A stretch of DNA of 36,269 bases from Desulfobacteraceae bacterium (lineage in GTDB: Bacteria; Desulfobacterota; Desulfobacteria; Desulfobacterales; JAABSP01). The stretch spans positions 1 through 36,269 of the forward strand of contig JAABTD010000021.1 in the NCBI GenBank assembly GCA_011390065.1. The letters run 5' to 3'. Made by a program: the position numbers and the translations under genes. A model generated the notes under the pieces. The model worked only from the letters and a program-made list of their open reading frames with translations, had not been told where the DNA came from and did no database searches. How positions within the stretch are numbered: position 1 is the stretch's first letter; each line of letters starts with the position of its first letter. Positions 1 through 36,269 of the stretch are shown piece after piece.

Positions 1-1436
1 AGGTTCTTTTGCCGGGTTTCCAGGGCATCCTTCAGGCCGGCCAACCGGCTGTCCAGGGTCTTTAGAGCTTCCCGACAGAGGGTCAGTTCGTCGCGGGCCG
101 CGGTTTCCTGCTGTTCTTTTTCGGCCGTCTCCCGGCGGGCGAGAAGCGTCTCTTCGTCGGCCCGCTTGCGTCGCCGTTCCAGGCCCTCTTTGTTCTCGAG
201 AGCATTGTCCAGGGCGGCCCGGTGTCGGGTCTCTTTCTGGAGCAGATCGTCAAGGACCGTTTTTTGGGCGCTCAATTCCCGTCCGGCCGCCGCCTGCGTC
301 TCTTTGAGACTTCGGGTTTCAGCCGCCTCCCCTTCGAATCGGGCCTGGAGGTCTGCGGCCTCTTTTTCCAGCTCGGCGGTCTTTTCGGCTGCTTGGGCCA
401 TTTCCTCCGCCATGGCCCGATTTTTTTCTGCCAGCGCCTCCCGTCCCTGTTGCAACTGGCCGATTTCTTCTGTCAGCCGGGACATCGCTTCCCGGAGGTG
501 AGCCAGGTCGTTTTCCGTCTTGTCGAGGGTTCGCTGGGTATCGAACCGGTCCGATTTCAGTTGAGAGATCTCCTGGTTTTTCTGGGACCGGGCGAGTTTG
601 ATTCCCTCGATGTCAGCCTCCAGCCGCCGGATGGCGGCTCCTTGAACCCCTTCCGCATCTTTTTGCTTCAGGATTTCTCCTTCAGCCTCCCGGATTTGGG
701 TGTAGAGGTCGTCGTACTGGCGGATGGAGAGCTGCAGGTCGAGAATCCGGATGCGGGCCTGGAGCGTTTTATACCGCTGGGCCTTTCTGGCTTGCCGCTG
801 GAGCCCGTTCATCTGCCGGGCCACCTCGACGATGATGTCGTTGACCCGGAGCAGGTTGGCGTTGGTCGCCTCCAGTTTCCGCAGGGTTTCGGTTTTTCGA
901 TTTTTGTACCTTGTGATGCCCGCGGCCTCCTCGATGAAAAACCGACGCTCTTCAGGCCCTGCGTCGGTAATGGCCCCGATGTTCCCCTGGCCGATGACCG
1001 CATAAGACTTTGCTCCCAGGCCGCTGCCCAGAAAGATGTTCTGAATATCCTTGAGGCGGCAGGGAAGCCGGTTGAGAAGATAGGCGCTTTCGCCGGAGCG
1101 GTAGAGGCGGCGGGTGATCATCACTTCGGTGAAGTGTTTGAGGACTTCGGGCGTCGCGTCGTCAGGACCTTTCCCGTCGTTGGCCAGCACCAGGGAGACC
1201 TCGGCCATGTTCAACGGCGCACGGCCGTCGGTCCCGGCAAAGATCACATCCTCCATGGACTTTCCCCGGAGTTGCTTGACGCTCTGTTCCCCCATGGCCC
1301 AGCGGAGGGCGTCGACGATGTTGCTCTTGCCGCACCCGTTAGGCCCCACAATGGCGGAAACACCGGCGGGAAAGTCGATGGCGACCTTTTCCACAAAGGA
1401 TTTGAACCCGGTGATTTCCATTTTCTTCAGTCTCAT
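1..1436 (-). CDS. smc: Chromosome segregation protein SMC, N-terminal part (runs off the left edge)
   Basis: The minus strand encodes 478 residues in an open frame that leaves the window. The first residues, MRLKKMEITGFKSF, are the typical SMC start. The Walker A motif GPNGCGKSN lies at about residues 31-39, followed by a region ending in EEAAGITRYKNRK, which is characteristic of SMC head domains. From about residue 170 the sequence is charged and coiled-coil-like, rich in Glu, Gln, Arg and Leu. SMC is the ATPase of the condensin complex, working with ScpA and ScpB to compact and segregate chromosomes. The hinge, the second coiled coil and the C-terminal ABC signature and Walker B are outside the window. 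The start at 1436 is chosen from family agreement; an AAGGAGG box lies at 1450-1456, a rather long 13 nt upstream. Identification is firm. Confidence 0.95.
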   Translation of the reverse strand, partial: MRLKKMEITGFKSFVEKVAIDFPAGVSAIVGPNGCGKSNIVDALRWAMGEQSVKQLRGKSMEDVIFAGTDGRAPLNMAEVSLVLANDGKGPDDATPEVLKHFTEVMITRRLYRSGESAYLLNRLPCRLKDIQNIFLGSGLGAKSYAVIGQGNIGAITDAGPEERRFFIEEAAGITRYKNRKTETLRKLEATNANLLRVNDIIVEVARQMNGLQRQARKAQRYKTLQARIRILDLQLSIRQYDDLYTQIREAEGEILKQKDAEGVQGAAIRRLEADIEGIKLARSQKNQEISQLKSDRFDTQRTLDKTENDLAHLREAMSRLTEEIGQLQQGREALAEKNRAMAEEMAQAAEKTAELEKEAADLQARFEGEAAETRSLKETQAAAGRELSAQKTVLDDLLQKETRHRAALDNALENKEGLERRRKRADEETLLARRETAEKEQQETAARDELTLCREALKTLDSRLAGLKDALETRQKN

Positions 1437-1548: not shown

Positions 1549-4200
1549 TCAGGGGTCGGCGCTCCAGGTATAATCCACCGGGAGGATCTCCTCATAAACA
1601 AGCCCTGAATCCCGCGATTCCATGATCACCTTCACCTGAGAGACGGTATCGGGAATGTCCAGGTAAAAATACCGCGAGACAGCGCCGGCGCCGGTCAGGA
1701 CCAGAGAGGGTTCGTGGTGCTGTCCCCCATTGGCGTCCACCGGCTTGACCCATATGTAAGCCCCTTCCGGATTGCCGATGATGTAGTCGACCGTGGCAAG
1801 CACCTTGACGCCGAGGCCGAGCCGGGCGGGGCTCGCCGGGGACATCCGGATGTTGAGGGCATAGGTTTCGGGGATCGGTTCGGACAGAAACTCCTGTACG
1901 GCGGCGTTGAAGTCGACGGGGCCGTCCGTATTGGGATACGCTCCTGCGTCGGCGATGCGCGCTTCCAGAAACGGGGTGTACCCTCTTTCCCGGATGTTTT
2001 TCACCGCCGGGTCGAATTCCGGATCCTCCGCGCCGCCGATGAGGGCGGTCTTGTGGGAGATGGCTTCCATTTCACCCAATCGGGAGGTTGAATCCGGAAA
2101 TGTGCGGTCCCAGGGGCTGACCAGGATCAGTTTGGCGATTTTTTCGGGGTAAAAGACGCCCAGCTGCGCGGCGACGGCGCTGCCGAGAGAAACCCCCACG
2201 ACATGGGCGCTGTCGATGCCCAGGTGATCCATCAGGGCGGCTGCGTCTGCGGTGGTCCGGTCGGCGCCGGGGTCCCAGGAAAAGGTGTCCAGGGGATGAC
2301 CGTCGGCCAGGGTCGATCGGCCGAAGCCCCGGATATCAAACCGGATCGTTTGGTATTGTTCGGAAAACGCTGCAAATTGCGAATCCCAGGAGGAGAGGCC
2401 TTTGCCCTCGCCCCAAGCATCGGTTTCCTGGCCGTGGATCAGCATCAGGGGATCGCCTTCTCCAGCGGTTTCGTAGTAGATCCGGGCGCCGTCGGACATC
2501 AGCACTGTACCGGAAATCACGGCGGGGCAGTCATACAGCACCGTTGCTCCCCTGGCTGCCAGTTCCGGGATGTAACCGTTGCAGGCGGCGTCATCCAGGG
2601 GATTGAGCGTCAGATCGACGACATCCCCGGCCCCGATGCCGTCGTTGTCCGCCAGCGGCCGGATGTCGGAAATGCGGTTGCCGGAGAGGTTCAGCTCCGA
2701 CAGATGGATCAGGTCCGAGAGCGGACCGAGATCGCTGATGCGATTGTCGGGGAGTTCCAGGACGACCAGATCAACGAGATGCTGAAGACCGTCGAGGTTG
2801 TCGATGTCGCTCCCGGAGGCCGAGAGGGTCGCAACGCCCGCCAGATCCCCGGGGAACAGGGGGCTTTCCGATATGCCGACGGCGCTTCGGACGGCCGCTT
2901 CAAGGTCCGGATCCGCAAAGGCGACCGCCGTTCCCTGTTGAGCCTTCCGGTAAGCGATGGTCCATCTGCCGAACCGGGTGTCGCCGGCCGCCTCGCTGTA
3001 GGCGATCCGGAAGAATCCGGCTTCGCCCCAGGTTGCGTCCCAGCTGTTTTTGAGGATAAAGGCCGCCTCGGCGTCATCCCAGCCGACGATGAGCGCTCCG
3101 TGGCCGCATTCGCCGAGACTGTCTTCGCAGTTCCCCCAGACGTGGGAGTAGACGCCCTGGTCATAGTAGTAGAAATCCGGAAAGACCTGGAAGATGGTTG
3201 CCAGGGGACCGTAAACGTAAAGTTCCTGTTTGAGGCGGTCAACGGTGACCGGCTGGCCGGCTGAAACAAAATGCCATCCGTCGGCTTTGATCGCATCGCT
3301 CTGCCAGTCCGCGCAGGCGTCGGCGCATTCCCCGTTCCCGGCCTGGTAGGGGAAGCAGGTTTCAGGGGCCGTGCCGGCGGCGGTGAGAAAATCGGCCGCC
3401 GCATCGATATAGCCGCCGTCGCAGCCGCCCGCCCCGCCGCAGGAGATCAGGATCTGTTCCGACAGATCGTCGGCGTTCACAGGAGAAAGACCGGCTTTGA
3501 GGGCCTGGGATTCCAGGGCCGCGATCGAGGCGAAGGCCCAGGAGGCGGCGCACAGGCGCTGATGCCGGACCGGCGTCACATAGTTGTTGCCGTTCCGGTT
3601 CCGCCAGTCGAAGGATGTCGGCAGTTCGGCGGGGTCCGGCAGCCCTGGTGATAAATCCGTTCGGGAAAGCGGGCCGGCGCCCAGCCCTTCCGTGATGGCC
3701 CCCAGAAGCAACAGGCGATCCGGAGCCGACAGGTCTGAGATGGGATTGTCTGCGGCTGACCACCGGGCCGACCGGTCTGCGATGGCGTCCTGGATCGCTT
3801 CCAGATCCGACAGCGGGGCCTTTCCGGTGACGGTGACGGCGATCTTTTTTGAATATTCGTCGCTGTCGTGGATGGTGAAGGCGGTGGACCCGGGGGAGAT
3901 TCCCTTCACTGTGACGGAGTGGCCGCCAAGGGTCACCCGGGCGATGGCCGCGTCGGCATCCTGGTCAAGGCGATAGGGGGAACGGCCGCCGTTGACCGTT
4001 ACCGTGCCGGTCTCGCCGACGCCCAGAGTGAGGCGGGTGGGGGAAATTCTCAGGTCCGGCCGATCTGATTCATCGCAGCCTGTTCCCCACAGCAGCAGAC
4101 CTGCCAGCAGCAGGGCCCAACCCGGAAGCCGAATCCCCGGAAGGCGAATCCGACGATCGGCCCGCTGTACGTTTTTATCCGCGCCGTCTGTTTTCATCAA
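1549..4200 (-). CDS. Lipoprotein: Ig-like, papain-like (Cys to Ser), leucine-rich repeat and alpha/beta-hydrolase-like domains
   Basis: An 883-residue exported protein. A hydrophobic segment at residues 28-38 ends in GTGC (Cys42), a probable lipobox. Asp follows the Cys, which in Enterobacteria favours inner-membrane retention. Residues 48-126 look like a bacterial Ig-like (Big_2) domain. Residues 190-420 match a papain-family (C1) fold: Gln214 for the oxyanion hole, His367 in GHGALIVGW and Asn385 in KNSW. The nucleophile position reads QRLCAASWAF, so Ser220 stands where Cys is expected. Residues 430-555 carry InlA-like leucine-rich repeats (LPDNRISDLGPL, LSGNRISDIRPL). Residues 560-775 match an alpha/beta hydrolase with nucleophile motif GVSLG (Ser671), but the usual His near the end appears to be Ala754 and the cap is very short. 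A beta-rich tail of about 110 residues follows. Domain calls are by motif. Catalysis in either domain is doubtful; a binding or scaffold role is inference. Confidence 0.85.
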   Translation of the reverse strand: MMKTDGADKNVQRADRRIRLPGIRLPGWALLLAGLLLWGTGCDESDRPDLRISPTRLTLGVGETGTVTVNGGRSPYRLDQDADAAIARVTLGGHSVTVKGISPGSTAFTIHDSDEYSKKIAVTVTGKAPLSDLEAIQDAIADRSARWSAADNPISDLSAPDRLLLLGAITEGLGAGPLSRTDLSPGLPDPAELPTSFDWRNRNGNNYVTPVRHQRLCAASWAFASIAALESQALKAGLSPVNADDLSEQILISCGGAGGCDGGYIDAAADFLTAAGTAPETCFPYQAGNGECADACADWQSDAIKADGWHFVSAGQPVTVDRLKQELYVYGPLATIFQVFPDFYYYDQGVYSHVWGNCEDSLGECGHGALIVGWDDAEAAFILKNSWDATWGEAGFFRIAYSEAAGDTRFGRWTIAYRKAQQGTAVAFADPDLEAAVRSAVGISESPLFPGDLAGVATLSASGSDIDNLDGLQHLVDLVVLELPDNRISDLGPLSDLIHLSELNLSGNRISDIRPLADNDGIGAGDVVDLTLNPLDDAACNGYIPELAARGATVLYDCPAVISGTVLMSDGARIYYETAGEGDPLMLIHGQETDAWGEGKGLSSWDSQFAAFSEQYQTIRFDIRGFGRSTLADGHPLDTFSWDPGADRTTADAAALMDHLGIDSAHVVGVSLGSAVAAQLGVFYPEKIAKLILVSPWDRTFPDSTSRLGEMEAISHKTALIGGAEDPEFDPAVKNIRERGYTPFLEARIADAGAYPNTDGPVDFNAAVQEFLSEPIPETYALNIRMSPASPARLGLGVKVLATVDYIIGNPEGAYIWVKPVDANGGQHHEPSLVLTGAGAVSRYFYLDIPDTVSQVKVIMESRDSGLVYEEILPVDYTWSADP

Positions 4201-4433: not shown

Positions 4434-6755
4434 TCAGATGGCGGAGGCATTTGCCGTCCCGGCGGCCATGAGGTAAGAAATTCGGCCGCCATCCCCGGGG
4501 GGATGCAGCTTTTGTTCCGAGGCATCGACCCAGTGCATGAGTCGGCGGACTTTGGAGAGGGTCTTCGATCCCTCCCAGAGATGCCCGAATGCGGCGCTGT
4601 CGGCCTTGACCCGCTGGAGAGTGGGCAGATCATCGTTCCGGCCGATCCGGCCCATCCCCCGAATGACCACGGTGAGTTGCTGGAGCAGGACCTCGCTGTG
4701 GCGATGGCTTTCCGACATCCGGTAGATGGGGGCGTCGGGGCTGCCATAGGTTTTGAGGGCGCTCCGTAGAACGGTCCGGGCCGTGGCGCCGCCGATCAGG
4801 GAGAGGAAAATGTAGATCTCCCGTTCCAGTGAGAGTAAAAACCGGGACGGCAGGGTCTTTTCGTTGTCCATGGACAGAACCACCTGGCTGTGAACCGTCC
4901 GGATTTTCCGGAGAAAGCGGGACTGTTGGTCGTCGATGCGTCTGGCCATTGCAGCCGCCACCTTTCGGTCCAGCCCGTTTTGAACCGCCAGCACCTCTTC
5001 AGGGGTCAACTCGATGTCGATGTCGATCTCCTTGTTATAGGTGCGGACCAGAAGATTGGAGAGCATGAAGGCGTTGCGATCGGAAAAATCGATGGCGTCT
5101 GGATCCCGGAGCACGTCCTTGAGGAGCATCTCGATGGCGTAGGCCGGTTCCTTCATCTTGGCGATCAGGAGTTGCAGAGCGTTGAGAAACGCCACCCGGT
5201 CGTTCCGGTGGGGCGTCTCCTTCAGATAATGCCACAGAAAACCGAAAACTTTTTTTTCGTGGGTGGCAAAGGCCGGTATGAACCGTTCGAAGACGCTCCG
5301 CAGAAAATGGCCTTTGGCGTCGAAACACTGCTTCAGGAGGCAGATCAGATCCTTTGCCGCTTCCACGCTGATCTTGAAATCCTGGGAAATGGCGCGGTAA
5401 TCCCGATCGTTGAAATTCATCGGTTGTCGGATCAGGTTTTTCATTTTCCGCTGGGTGCGGATGCGGCCTTTGTGACCGGCCAGCAGCTGTTTAAGCTTTT
5501 CATTGACTGTGTTCAGCGACATTTCTTTTCCGTTGGAGGACCGCAGTTTGATCCCGTCCCGATTCACCGCCAGGTCGTCAAACACATTGTCTTTCACCTG
5601 CTCGAACCGCCCCCGGATGTTCCGGAGCACCTCCTTTTCAACCCGAGAGTCCGACCCGGCTTTTTCGGCTGCCGTCAACAGTTCGCTGGCATGATGGAGC
5701 CGCTGGACCAGTCGAGGGGCCGTCACCTGATCATAATCGTTTCCATAGACCGCCTGGAGGGATCGGGCCGCCTGTCGGGACGCCGCATCGAAGAATTTGG
5801 AGGCCAAACGGGCCACTTGCGCTTTTTCCGCAGCATCTTTCAAGGAAAGCGTTTGTCGGCGGCCTTCCATGGCCAGCCATTTGATGTTGTTGACCTCGAT
5901 GGGCGGTTTGATGAGTTTTTCCTTGACTTGCCGGATGCCGAAGATGGCGTCGCAGACCCCGTAAAATGGGTTGTCGGGCGTGCGCTTCATCCAGCGGTCC
6001 ACCCGCCGGACCAGTTCGTCCATGCTGCTTTGCCCCATATCGTTCAACCCGGCGATGAGGGTGAGATTAAGATCCGGCTTGCCGGATTCATCGCAGATGA
6101 TGGGCAGGGTCTTGGTTTCCTTTCCGGTCTGGAATTCGATGTCGGCAGATTGTTTCTGAGCCTGCCTGTAGCGGGAGAGGATTTGTAGGCAGATGTTGAG
6201 ATGATGGAAGAAAGGTCGATCCATTGTCTGGGGCGTCGGCGGCACGGCGATGCTCAGAGTGCTGATGCCGTGATCGGCCAGAACTTTAAACGCCTTGGCC
6301 ATTCGTCCGGGAAGATGGGACATCTGAACGCCCATGCGTTTGTAGAGGGCGACGCCCTCTGCCGCGTCGATCTCCATGTCGTCGAAACGGATCACGTAGT
6401 CGTTGTCCGGCGGCACATTGACGCCGGTGGGAAACCCTCTGAAGCGGATGAGAAGACGGCTGTCGCGGTGGGGCAGCCGGGCCACTTTGTTCAGGGCGCC
6501 GTTGAGTTCGGCCATGTCGTCCCTGTCGGTCTTCATACCCTGGAGAAAATGGGCGGTCACAAAAAAAGCGCTGATCTGGTGGGTCAGCTGGATCATATAT
6601 AACTTGGCTTGGTCCAGGGCCGCCTCGGCTTTATCGAGCGCCGGGTCGCCGTTTGATCCCTCACGGCCCGGGGCCGGAATCCGGTAGCTGAGACCCCCCA
6701 GCTCATTAAAAAGCTTTTGGGCGTCCTGGTCCAGTGTGATACGGTGGCTGGTCAT
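4434..6755 (-). CDS. Unrecognised large cytoplasmic protein (773 aa)
   Basis: I do not recognise this family. The frame is open further upstream to 6803, but an AGGAGG box at 6766-6771 sits 10 nt before the ATG at 6755, giving a start of MTSHRITLDQ. No signal peptide or membrane segment is visible. The protein is rich in charged residues and reads as mostly helical, with few Cys and no obvious nucleotide-binding motif. Long Arg/Lys-rich helices occupy the middle (around RTQRKMKNLIRQPMNFNDRD). It stands alone between a lipoprotein gene and a divergently transcribed transporter. The upstream region holds overlapping divergent promoter-like elements. Being a long, low-repeat coding frame with codon use like its neighbours, it is very likely a real gene. 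Its function cannot be guessed from sequence alone. Confidence 0.85.
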   Translation of the reverse strand: MTSHRITLDQDAQKLFNELGGLSYRIPAPGREGSNGDPALDKAEAALDQAKLYMIQLTHQISAFFVTAHFLQGMKTDRDDMAELNGALNKVARLPHRDSRLLIRFRGFPTGVNVPPDNDYVIRFDDMEIDAAEGVALYKRMGVQMSHLPGRMAKAFKVLADHGISTLSIAVPPTPQTMDRPFFHHLNICLQILSRYRQAQKQSADIEFQTGKETKTLPIICDESGKPDLNLTLIAGLNDMGQSSMDELVRRVDRWMKRTPDNPFYGVCDAIFGIRQVKEKLIKPPIEVNNIKWLAMEGRRQTLSLKDAAEKAQVARLASKFFDAASRQAARSLQAVYGNDYDQVTAPRLVQRLHHASELLTAAEKAGSDSRVEKEVLRNIRGRFEQVKDNVFDDLAVNRDGIKLRSSNGKEMSLNTVNEKLKQLLAGHKGRIRTQRKMKNLIRQPMNFNDRDYRAISQDFKISVEAAKDLICLLKQCFDAKGHFLRSVFERFIPAFATHEKKVFGFLWHYLKETPHRNDRVAFLNALQLLIAKMKEPAYAIEMLLKDVLRDPDAIDFSDRNAFMLSNLLVRTYNKEIDIDIELTPEEVLAVQNGLDRKVAAAMARRIDDQQSRFLRKIRTVHSQVVLSMDNEKTLPSRFLLSLEREIYIFLSLIGGATARTVLRSALKTYGSPDAPIYRMSESHRHSEVLLQQLTVVIRGMGRIGRNDDLPTLQRVKADSAAFGHLWEGSKTLSKVRRLMHWVDASEQKLHPPGDGGRISYLMAAGTANASAI

Positions 6756-6816
6756 GTGGCGGATACCTCCTGCGCCGCGCCTGTGATTTTTTTTTGCTTC
6801 CACAATCGAAACCTTA

Positions 6817-33537: not shown

Positions 33538-33581
33538 CTCGTGAACATCAGAACCCGATCCGAGCAGGGAAGATTTCGCGA

Positions 33582-33689
33582 ATGTTGGCGGGAAAAAGCA
33601 AAGCCCCGGCGCCGCATAACCGCCCCATCGATGAGTTTGTACGGCGGTATCCGGAGCAGTGGTTCTGAGTGCATCGGCGGTGGAAGCGG
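33582..33689 (+). pseudogene. 3' relic of a lipid-A lauroyl acyltransferase (LpxL/HtrB family) gene
   Basis: One plus-strand frame reads RPIDEFVRRYPEQWF, then TGA (33666-33668), then VHRRWKR. The combination YPEQWFWVHRRWK is the conserved C-terminal end of LpxL/HtrB-type Kdo-lipid A acyltransferases; the TGA stands where TGG for Trp is expected. Only about 35 codons before the homology end are left, because the heptosyltransferase gene stops at 33537. So a gene for lipid-A acylation was probably deleted and its tail kept. The match is from memory of the family and the segment is short. The rest of 33541-33733 shows nothing else. Confidence 0.6.
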
Positions 33690-33763
33690 GCGTCGTCGCG
33701 TGCGTGGCCGAGGGATGGAAAGGAAGCGCGGTGATGGGAGATGACGGGGATCGTCTGCGACCA

Positions 33764-34651
33764 ATGAGAGAAAATCACGATCAAAACTTGAAGAACGCAT
33801 TTCTGGATTTTCCGAAAGAGGCGTTGGAATGGCTGTTTCCCGAAGCGGTGGACGCGTTCGGTAAAATCCGCCGCGTCGAATTTCCGCGCCAGGAGCCGAA
33901 AAAACGGCGCCTGTCTGACCGGGGGCTTTCGCTGGACATGCCGATTTTGTTTGAATTCGAGCGAAAACAATTGCTGTTGTGGCTGGTGGAATTTCAGGAG
34001 GACAAGGCAAAATTTTCCATTTACAAGGTGTTGATGTACGCAACCGAAATGGCCGAGGCTCATCCCGGGGCGCTGGTGGTTCCTGCGGTGTTGTTCACGG
34101 ACCGGACGCGGTGGCGAAAGGACGTGAAGCGGGAAATCGATTTCCGCCTGGGCCGTAGGGTGTTCTTGCATTTTGAATATCTGTTCGTTAAGCTGTTTGA
34201 TTATGACGCACGGGATTATTTTCACTCGAAAAACCCGCTGGTCAAAATTTTGTTGCCGAAGATGTGGTATCCGGCTGAAATGCGCGTCGAAGTGATTATG
34301 AGGGCGTATCAGGGACTGTTTGAATTGACCTCCGCAGCGTTGTTCGAGAAATATGTCGATTTTATCGACGTCTATGCCGATGTTCGGCAAGAGGAGCGGG
34401 ACGATATTTTGAGAGCCTTGGAGGAGAGAAAGGAGACGGTTATGCTTGCTGAATATATTAAGGATAAAGGACGCATTGAAGTTGCGAGGGAAAATGTGTT
34501 GGAAGTACTCAATACTAAGTTTAGTTCTGTTCCGATTGAAGTTTCTGAAAGCGTCAATGGCACGACCGATTTGGTCGAATTGAAGAAAATGTTGAAACAG
34601 GGGGTTCTGGCGAATTCTTTGTCGGATTTTATAAAGATTGTAAAAAATTAG
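33764..34651 (+). CDS. Rpn-family PD-(D/E)XK nuclease / transposase-like protein (full copy A)
   Basis: A 295-residue protein of the Rpn/transposase_31-like group. The core reads LDMPILFEFERKQLLLWLVEFQEDK, giving the Asp and the ExQ-type residues of a PD-(D/E)XK nuclease. It is followed by YKVLMYATEMAEAHPGALVV and VLFTDRTRW, typical of the group. The last 60 residues (VLEVLNTKFSSVPIEVSESV) resemble the DUF4351-like tail found in these proteins. The start at 33764 is chosen because the same MRENHDQNLKNAF start is shared by two further copies; ATG at 33734 with AAGGAAG upstream is an alternative. Coding sequence after about 34430 is markedly richer in A and T. Such proteins promote DNA recombination or are parts of mobile elements. 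Whether this copy is active is unknown. Confidence 0.8.
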   Translation: MRENHDQNLKNAFLDFPKEALEWLFPEAVDAFGKIRRVEFPRQEPKKRRLSDRGLSLDMPILFEFERKQLLLWLVEFQEDKAKFSIYKVLMYATEMAEAHPGALVVPAVLFTDRTRWRKDVKREIDFRLGRRVFLHFEYLFVKLFDYDARDYFHSKNPLVKILLPKMWYPAEMRVEVIMRAYQGLFELTSAALFEKYVDFIDVYADVRQEERDDILRALEERKETVMLAEYIKDKGRIEVARENVLEVLNTKFSSVPIEVSESVNGTTDLVELKKMLKQGVLANSLSDFIKIVKN

Positions 34652-35749: not shown

Positions 35750-36269
35750 ATGAGAGAAAATCACGATCAAAACTTAAAGAACGCATTTCTGGATTTTCCG
35801 AAAGAGGCGTTGGAATTGCTGTTCCCTGAAGCCCTGGACGCGTTCGGCAAAATCCGCCGCGTCGAATTTCCGCGCCAGGAGCCGAAAAAACGGCGTCTGT
35901 TGGACCGGGGGTTTTTGCTGGACATGCCGATTTTGTTTGAATTCGAGAGAAGGCAACTGCTGTTGTGGCTGGTGGAATTTCAGGAGGACAAAAGCAAATT
36001 TTCGATTTACAAGGTTTTGCATTACGCCACCGACATGGCCGAGGCCCATCCCCATGCGCTGGTGGTTCCCGTGGTGTTGTTTACGGATCGGAAGCGGTGG
36101 CGAAAGGACGTGAAGCGGGAAATCGATTTCCGCCTGGGCCGCAGGGTGTTCTTGCATTTTGAATATCTGTTCGTTAAGCTGTTTGATTATGACGCACGGG
36201 ATTATTTTCACTCGAAAAACCCGCTGGTCAAAATTTTGTTGCCGAAGATGTGGTATCCGGCTGAAATGC
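35750..36269 (+). CDS. Rpn-family PD-(D/E)XK nuclease / transposase-like protein (copy D, cut by the right edge)
   Basis: Begins MRENHDQNLKNAFLDF, exactly as copy A, and continues with the nuclease core LLDMPILFEFERRQLLLWLV followed by EFQEDK, then YATDMAEAHPHALVV and VLFTDRKRW. An in-frame stop upstream with no other start in between fixes the ATG at 35750. Up to about 36100 it differs from copy A at many positions, whereas the last 150 bases in the window are nearly identical to 34137-34285. The C-terminal part lies outside, so completeness cannot be judged. Confidence 0.8.
   Translation, partial: MRENHDQNLKNAFLDFPKEALELLFPEALDAFGKIRRVEFPRQEPKKRRLLDRGFLLDMPILFEFERRQLLLWLVEFQEDKSKFSIYKVLHYATDMAEAHPHALVVPVVLFTDRKRWRKDVKREIDFRLGRRVFLHFEYLFVKLFDYDARDYFHSKNPLVKILLPKMWYPAEM

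Follow-up and report, generated by a model that had tools for sequence, protein, structure and literature searches.

Cathepsin B/C-like C1A peptidases (procathepsin B, 4i04 and 1mir, and dipeptidyl peptidase I, 1jqp) have the same fold, including the prodomain, as part of an 883-residue lipoprotein encoded in the window, i.e. the whole stretch of 36,269 nucleotides that was analysed. The Gln, His and Asn residues and the non-nucleophile cysteines of these peptidases are also present in the window domain; unlike them, it has Ser as the nucleophile residue and is fused to leucine-rich repeats (LRR) and an alpha/beta-hydrolase domain in a bacterial lipoprotein. Replacements of this kind are documented. 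The papain-like domain of Plasmodium SERA5 has Ser at the nucleophile position, as in the window protein, and in one source (PMC4671257) its natural Ser form is described as lacking detected proteolysis and as having an indispensable, non-enzymatic role. SERA5 is the closest worked example for the window protein, although the Ser-type SERA proteins are an established group within their family, whereas the nearest relatives of the window protein have Cys.

The silicateins likewise carry a Cys-to-Ser replacement in a cathepsin-like fold, according to PMC4671257 and PMC9825947; they are, however, silica-condensing sponge enzymes, and nothing in the window protein points to that activity. Menin, APC5867, DUF2145, DUF2272 and DUF3750 have Ser for Cys beside the other active-site residues (PMC10318531), but there the Ser is conserved in the family, whereas the window protein represents one lineage of a Cys family. 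The earlier note on this DNA had named SERA proteins and silicateins as parallels; this list is incomplete, and congopain and EnCL (PMC9825947) as well as menin and the others listed above (PMC10318531) have to be added.

As to catalysis, Ser nucleophiles in N-delta triads are natural but extremely rare, as stated in PMC9825947, and C-to-S forms of bleomycin hydrolase and congopain retain residual activity that is tied to a negative pocket, as stated in PMC10318531. PMC10380794 counts active-site loss as one of the forces that act on C1A peptidases, and by its own account gives multidomain prokaryotic C1A proteins no detailed analysis. Our literature search, with subscription journals mostly outside its range, returned no paper on this protein or its architecture.

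The papain-like domain and its catalytic loop

The features of the locus are collected in Table 1. The open frame starts with TTG as listed, its second codon being ATG. Judged by eye from the sequence, the N-terminus is lipoprotein-like, with a lipobox that is atypical at position -3.

Table 1. Coordinates of the lipoprotein gene, its domains and its neighbours in the window
Feature	Position	Strand	Basis
883-aa multidomain lipoprotein gene	1549..4200	minus	open frame; orthologues in conserved synteny in two genomes
Signal peptide, Cys of LLLWGTGC probably lipidated, residues ~1-45	4066..4200	minus	sequence reading
Procathepsin-type prodomain (predicted), residues 129-190	3631..3816	minus	model; VIA-align hits among procathepsin B zymogens, model residues 1-291
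C1A (papain-like) domain with Ser in place of the nucleophile Cys, residues 191-419	2944..3630	minus	PF00112, model, fold match
Altered catalytic loop HQRLCAAS, residues 213-220 (two orthologues YQG[LI]CGSC)	3541..3564	minus	alignment
Leucine-rich-repeat segment, residues 420-555	2536..2943	minus	PF12799 (LRR_4) at 478-517
Alpha/beta-hydrolase domain, residues 556-780	1861..2535	minus	PF00561 (Abhydrolase_1) at 584-700; Ser671 and Asp726 kept, Ala754
C-terminal beta-rich domain, residues 781-883	1552..1860	minus	strands in model, lower confidence
SMC-like gene, conserved neighbour, cut by window edge	3..1436	minus	tblastn, 80% and 74% identity adjoining the orthologues
789-aa conserved neighbour gene	4434..6803	minus	tblastn, 72% and 45% identity adjoining the orthologues

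Residues 193-402 match PF00112 (Peptidase_C1) with 148 bits against a cut-off of 20.7. The domain is thus genuinely of the C1A type; a motif arisen by chance is ruled out by this match together with those to PDB sequences and folds. In the NCBIfam search, all matches fell far below the cut-off. By sequence, dipeptidyl peptidase I is the top hit in the PDB (E 5.5e-32); Ser220 is aligned there with a Cys that we take to be the catalytic one.

A structural model was computed for residues 129-419, comprising the C1A domain and the 62 residues preceding it, from 68 aligned sequences (67 of 110 rows and the window domain), with a pLDDT of 93.9 and a pTM of 0.93. The closest solved structure is Schistosoma procathepsin B1 (4i04; Z 33.1, rmsd 2.3 Å, 274 of 291 residues aligned), and rat and human procathepsin B and human procathepsin K follow within 1 Z unit, which is to be regarded as a tie. 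Since the closest structures are zymogens, the region before the catalytic domain is read as a prodomain, and all 291 residues are predicted to fold as a complete procathepsin-B-like zymogen.

Ser220 is located at the papain nucleophile position in the motif QRLCAASWAF (3561-3532, minus strand), encoded by TCC at 3543-3541. On the same strand, Gln214 (codon 3561-3559), Cys217 (3552-3550), Cys254 (3441-3439), Cys260 (3423-3421), His367 (3102-3100) and Asn385 (3048-3046) are all kept. Of the features of a C1A member, the papain fold and the oxyanion Gln, the His and the Asn are present, and the catalytic Cys nucleophile is absent. These results agree with the earlier note, in which Ser220 (TCC) had been assigned to the nucleophile position of this motif within 3523-3562 and the same six residues had been reported as kept, with correct numbering throughout. 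Another Cys as the nucleophile, which the earlier note had named as a refuting outcome, is not supported, since the alignment places none at the site: the domain has 8 cysteines and that of the same-genus orthologue 9, and the absent one is Cys220.

The TCC codon had also been described as one base away from TGC. This holds for the Ser codon, but the adjoining residues are changed as well, and the step from QGLCGSCW to QRLCAASW exceeds one base; compared with the same-genus orthologue (G001), YQGLCGSC has become HQRLCAAS, with 5 of the 8 residues differing. At the nucleotide level, the loop differs from G001 at 8 of 24 positions and is not an extreme window, so that ordinary substitutions suffice and a mutation burst was rejected as a candidate. 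Likewise, its raw dN of 0.35 against G001 is not that of the fastest 8-codon window, which is found at 356-363 (0.70). A one-codon insertion combined with removal of the Cys codon would be about as parsimonious as three substitutions, and the codons do not separate the two routes. The oddity of the loop lies in the identity of the changed residues rather than in the number of bases. Local gene conversion from another copy was also rejected, as the changed 24-mer occurs only once in the window's genome and no donor copy was found when up to 3 mismatches were allowed.

Orthologues, sequence constraint and the hydrolase domain

In a set of 58 genomes, made up of the window's own and those around it, a search with the full-length protein gave two clear orthologues, one in the same genus (G001, 70% identity) and one in another genus of the family (G003, 51%). 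All three genes are flanked by the SMC-like gene and the conserved 789-aa gene; the name SMC is a putative one, given from the sequence of the gene at 3..1436. The loops read YQGLCGSCW in G001, YQGICGSCW in G003 and HQRLCAASW in the window. An orthologue is found in 3 of the 4 family genomes examined and Ser in 1 of the 3 species, so that assignment of Ser to this species only rests on three orthologues, the window's included. Fixation of Ser in the genus or family is ruled out on these 4 genomes.

Across 122 distinct subfamily domains, a non-random set of loci collected because they resemble the window protein or domain (151 rows before identical or overlapping copies were merged), 116 have Cys as the nucleophile residue, 3 have Ser, and Asp, Gly and Leu occur once each; one of the gathering scans used a pattern allowing Cys, Ser or Asp at this position. 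The question posed in the earlier note, whether Ser is fixed in the clade, is therefore answered in the negative, with Cys in both orthologues and in 116 of the 122 domains of the wider subfamily. Its further suggestion, that Cys in all close homologues would speak for a recent mutation or an error, is borne out in so far as Ser is not fixed in the clade, but it does not extend to an error, since several adjoining codons have changed together.

We defined 60 conserved columns (at least 80% conserved) on the Cys-bearing rows other than the three orthologues. The window domain deviates at 5 of them; the deviations at 326 and 388 are common to G001, and those private to the window are consecutive, namely G218A, S219A and C220S. 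Ala at position 218 is found in three domains, all of which lack the Cys: CAAS in the window, CAAD in L008/L146 and CASG in L081.

With G003 as the outgroup, the window branch accounts for 17 changes in the C1A domain, against 8 for the G001 branch (p=0.11), or 12 against 8 when residues 213-220 are left out (p=0.50); a general acceleration of the domain following the loss is not supported. Residues 213-220 hold 5 of the 17 window-branch changes (P=0.007 under random placement). Relative to G001, conservation is highest in the C1A domain (77% identity), with an NG86 dN/dS of 0.24 (0.23 without the loop) that is the lowest of the domains together with that of the C-terminal domain (0.245); these values average the whole branch, in which constraint after the Cys loss is not separable and a recent decay would look alike.

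A catalytic residue is also missing from the alpha/beta-hydrolase domain. The nucleophile elbow (GVSLGS, Ser671) and Asp726 are kept, whereas the place at which the catalytic His would be expected is taken by Ala754 in the window (DAGAYPN) and by Ala in G001 (GAGAYPN); the His is retained in G003 (GAGHFPN) and, in another family, in L010 (DAGHFCN). Of the residues expected in an active PF00561 hydrolase, the nucleophile Ser and the acid residue are thus present and the catalytic His is absent, although another His could serve the domain. The hydrolase model has a pLDDT of 81.9, and its fold matches are to alpha/beta hydrolases, the best being 3bdi (Z 25.6, 2.4 Å, 200 residues aligned); the PDB sequence alignments cover mainly the N-terminal half of the domain, so that the His position falls outside them.

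Interpretation of Ser220

Catalytic residues have been lost, the frame is intact and the fold is conserved. We consider that the protein is probably a former protease/hydrolase lipoprotein turned pseudoenzyme, in which two catalytic centres were lost successively. The ancestor would have combined a procathepsin-like zymogen domain bearing Gln-Cys-His-Asn with an alpha/beta-hydrolase bearing Ser-Asp-His. Parsimony on the three orthologues suggests that the hydrolase His was the first to go, before the split of the two examined species of the genus, and that the protease Cys, with the preceding Gly and Ser, was lost later in the window's lineage. Ser220 would then be without useful catalysis, and in the absence of self-cleavage the prodomain might stay docked over the cleft. 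Presumably, the role of the protein at the cell envelope is binding, through its LRR and Ig-like parts and the clefts of the dead enzymes, and not cutting. Support for this interpretation comes from Cys in both orthologues, the restriction of the private deviations to 218-220 among the 60 columns, the clustering of window-branch changes in the loop with no clear excess elsewhere, the low dN/dS of the domain, its zymogen fold, the lack of Cys in all three domains with Ala at 218, the missing hydrolase His and the SERA5 precedent. Points against it are the retention of Gln, His and Asn, which is not required of an idle site, the small number of orthologues, the whole-branch averaging of dN/dS, the unexceptional raw dN and nucleotide differences of the loop, and the residual activity of C-to-S enzymes with a negative pocket, given that this domain is acidic. 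A homologous fold with a catalytic residue lost, as in papain-fold pseudoproteases, is what the domain displays; a Ser common to a clade, as in Ser-type C1 proteins such as SERA5 and silicatein, is not, both orthologues having Cys. The earlier note had offered a pseudoprotease or a Ser-variant enzyme; this pair of options was rightly chosen, and the evidence leans to the former.

The same retention of Gln, His and Asn is what a Ser-nucleophile enzyme would call for, in which Ser220, acting with His367, Asn385 and Gln214, would make the domain a functional hydrolase or transferase, slower or altered, along the lines proposed for silicateins and congopain variants. Such an enzyme is possible but less likely than a pseudoenzyme, and on the whole quite unlikely. 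The known C-to-S exceptions and the role ascribed to a negative pocket (PMC10318531 and PMC9825947) would fit the net charge of the domain, -15, but the Cys-bearing domain of G001 is equally acidic at -17 (G003, -9), so that the charge did not shift together with the residue. That a Ser state can persist is indicated by a different, secreted C1A gene, in which two species have Ser beside a retained His and Asn; in the window protein, however, Gly218 and Ser219 are changed too, the Ser is absent from the orthologues, and Ser triads in the papain N-delta arrangement are described as extremely rare (PMC9825947). It seems improbable that Ser220-His367-Asn385 is a working papain-type (N-delta) Ser triad that arose within one genus of a Cys ancestor; if it were, the two proteins would constitute a natural Cys/Ser enzyme pair, 77% identical in the domain. 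Neutral decay, in which this species no longer needs the protease function and its gene is on the way to being lost by drift, is an unlikely explanation: change at 5 of the 8 loop residues and the prior absence of the hydrolase His are compatible with it, but the 883-codon frame is intact, the 60 conserved columns contain no further private deviation, and no clear relative-rate excess is seen outside the loop. A sequencing or assembly error at the loop is very improbable. The assembly is indeed fragmented (464 contigs, 4.8% contamination), but a single wrong base call is insufficient, because five codons are changed in an intact 883-codon frame; moreover, the flanks are normal, the neighbours are conserved, and no other copy of the 24-mer is available for a mis-join.

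The lineage-restricted loss of the nucleophile in this fused bacterial C1A protein is real; neither a serine protease of the whole clade nor an evident error accounts for it. The locus is a clean natural experiment, with two syntenic orthologues that are 77% identical in the domain and differ at the catalytic loop. The second catalytic domain of the protein was apparently lost one step earlier. Pairs of this kind allow a direct test of the passage from enzyme to pseudoenzyme. The finding is modest, given that Ser-for-Cys proteins of the papain fold are already on record; its most interesting part is the pairing with the second catalytic centre, whereas the kind of thing is known.

Recurrence of nucleophile loss in C1A domains

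Loss of the C1A nucleophile recurs in bacteria, with six cases among the 122 domains of the non-random set and one elsewhere in the phylum. In a tree of these domains from which the loop columns had been omitted, six separate changes are needed to account for the rows lacking Cys, again within a non-random set; two of the rows are L137, with Leu at the nucleophile, which resembles a frameshifted or otherwise frame-disrupted copy, and L042, a partial domain on a long branch. L008/L146 (G026:C36:12450-13244) lies in a frame of 831 aa and has Asp as the nucleophile residue (QGDCAADWAF), with Leu replacing the His; from its sequence it is a clear pseudoprotease. Two further C1A domains lack the Cys: L129 (Bacteroidales Bact_23, LUZO01000004.1), with GSSW and Leu for His, and L081 (PHBD01000003.1), with CASGW and the His kept.

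A scan of 395 phylum genomes with the Ser pattern CAR..TGY..TCN-TGG-GCN-TTY, which covers TCN serine codons and these flanking residues, hit 15 places, of which only 3 are C1A domains: that of the window and those of two species of one other genus. The latter two, L177/L184 (G551:C61:1018-1992) and L178/L185 (G570:C26:33537-34511), are 325-aa secreted-type C1A proteins with QGTCGSSWAF and with His and Asn kept; they share 95% identity, and the gene is found in 3 of the 9 genomes of the genus. A third species of this genus has a Cys-bearing protein, 45% identical and with the same kinds of neighbours (L186, G671:C88:3495-4346). The 325-aa protein is the better candidate for a stable Ser variant than the window protein.

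The window's genome also encodes a second C1A protein of 854 aa with the canonical QGGCGSCWAF (G000:C232:12193-12882). In the window itself, the minus-strand readings at 33548-34390 and 35774-36211 are near-identical over ~140 residues, indicating two similar genes near the window end.
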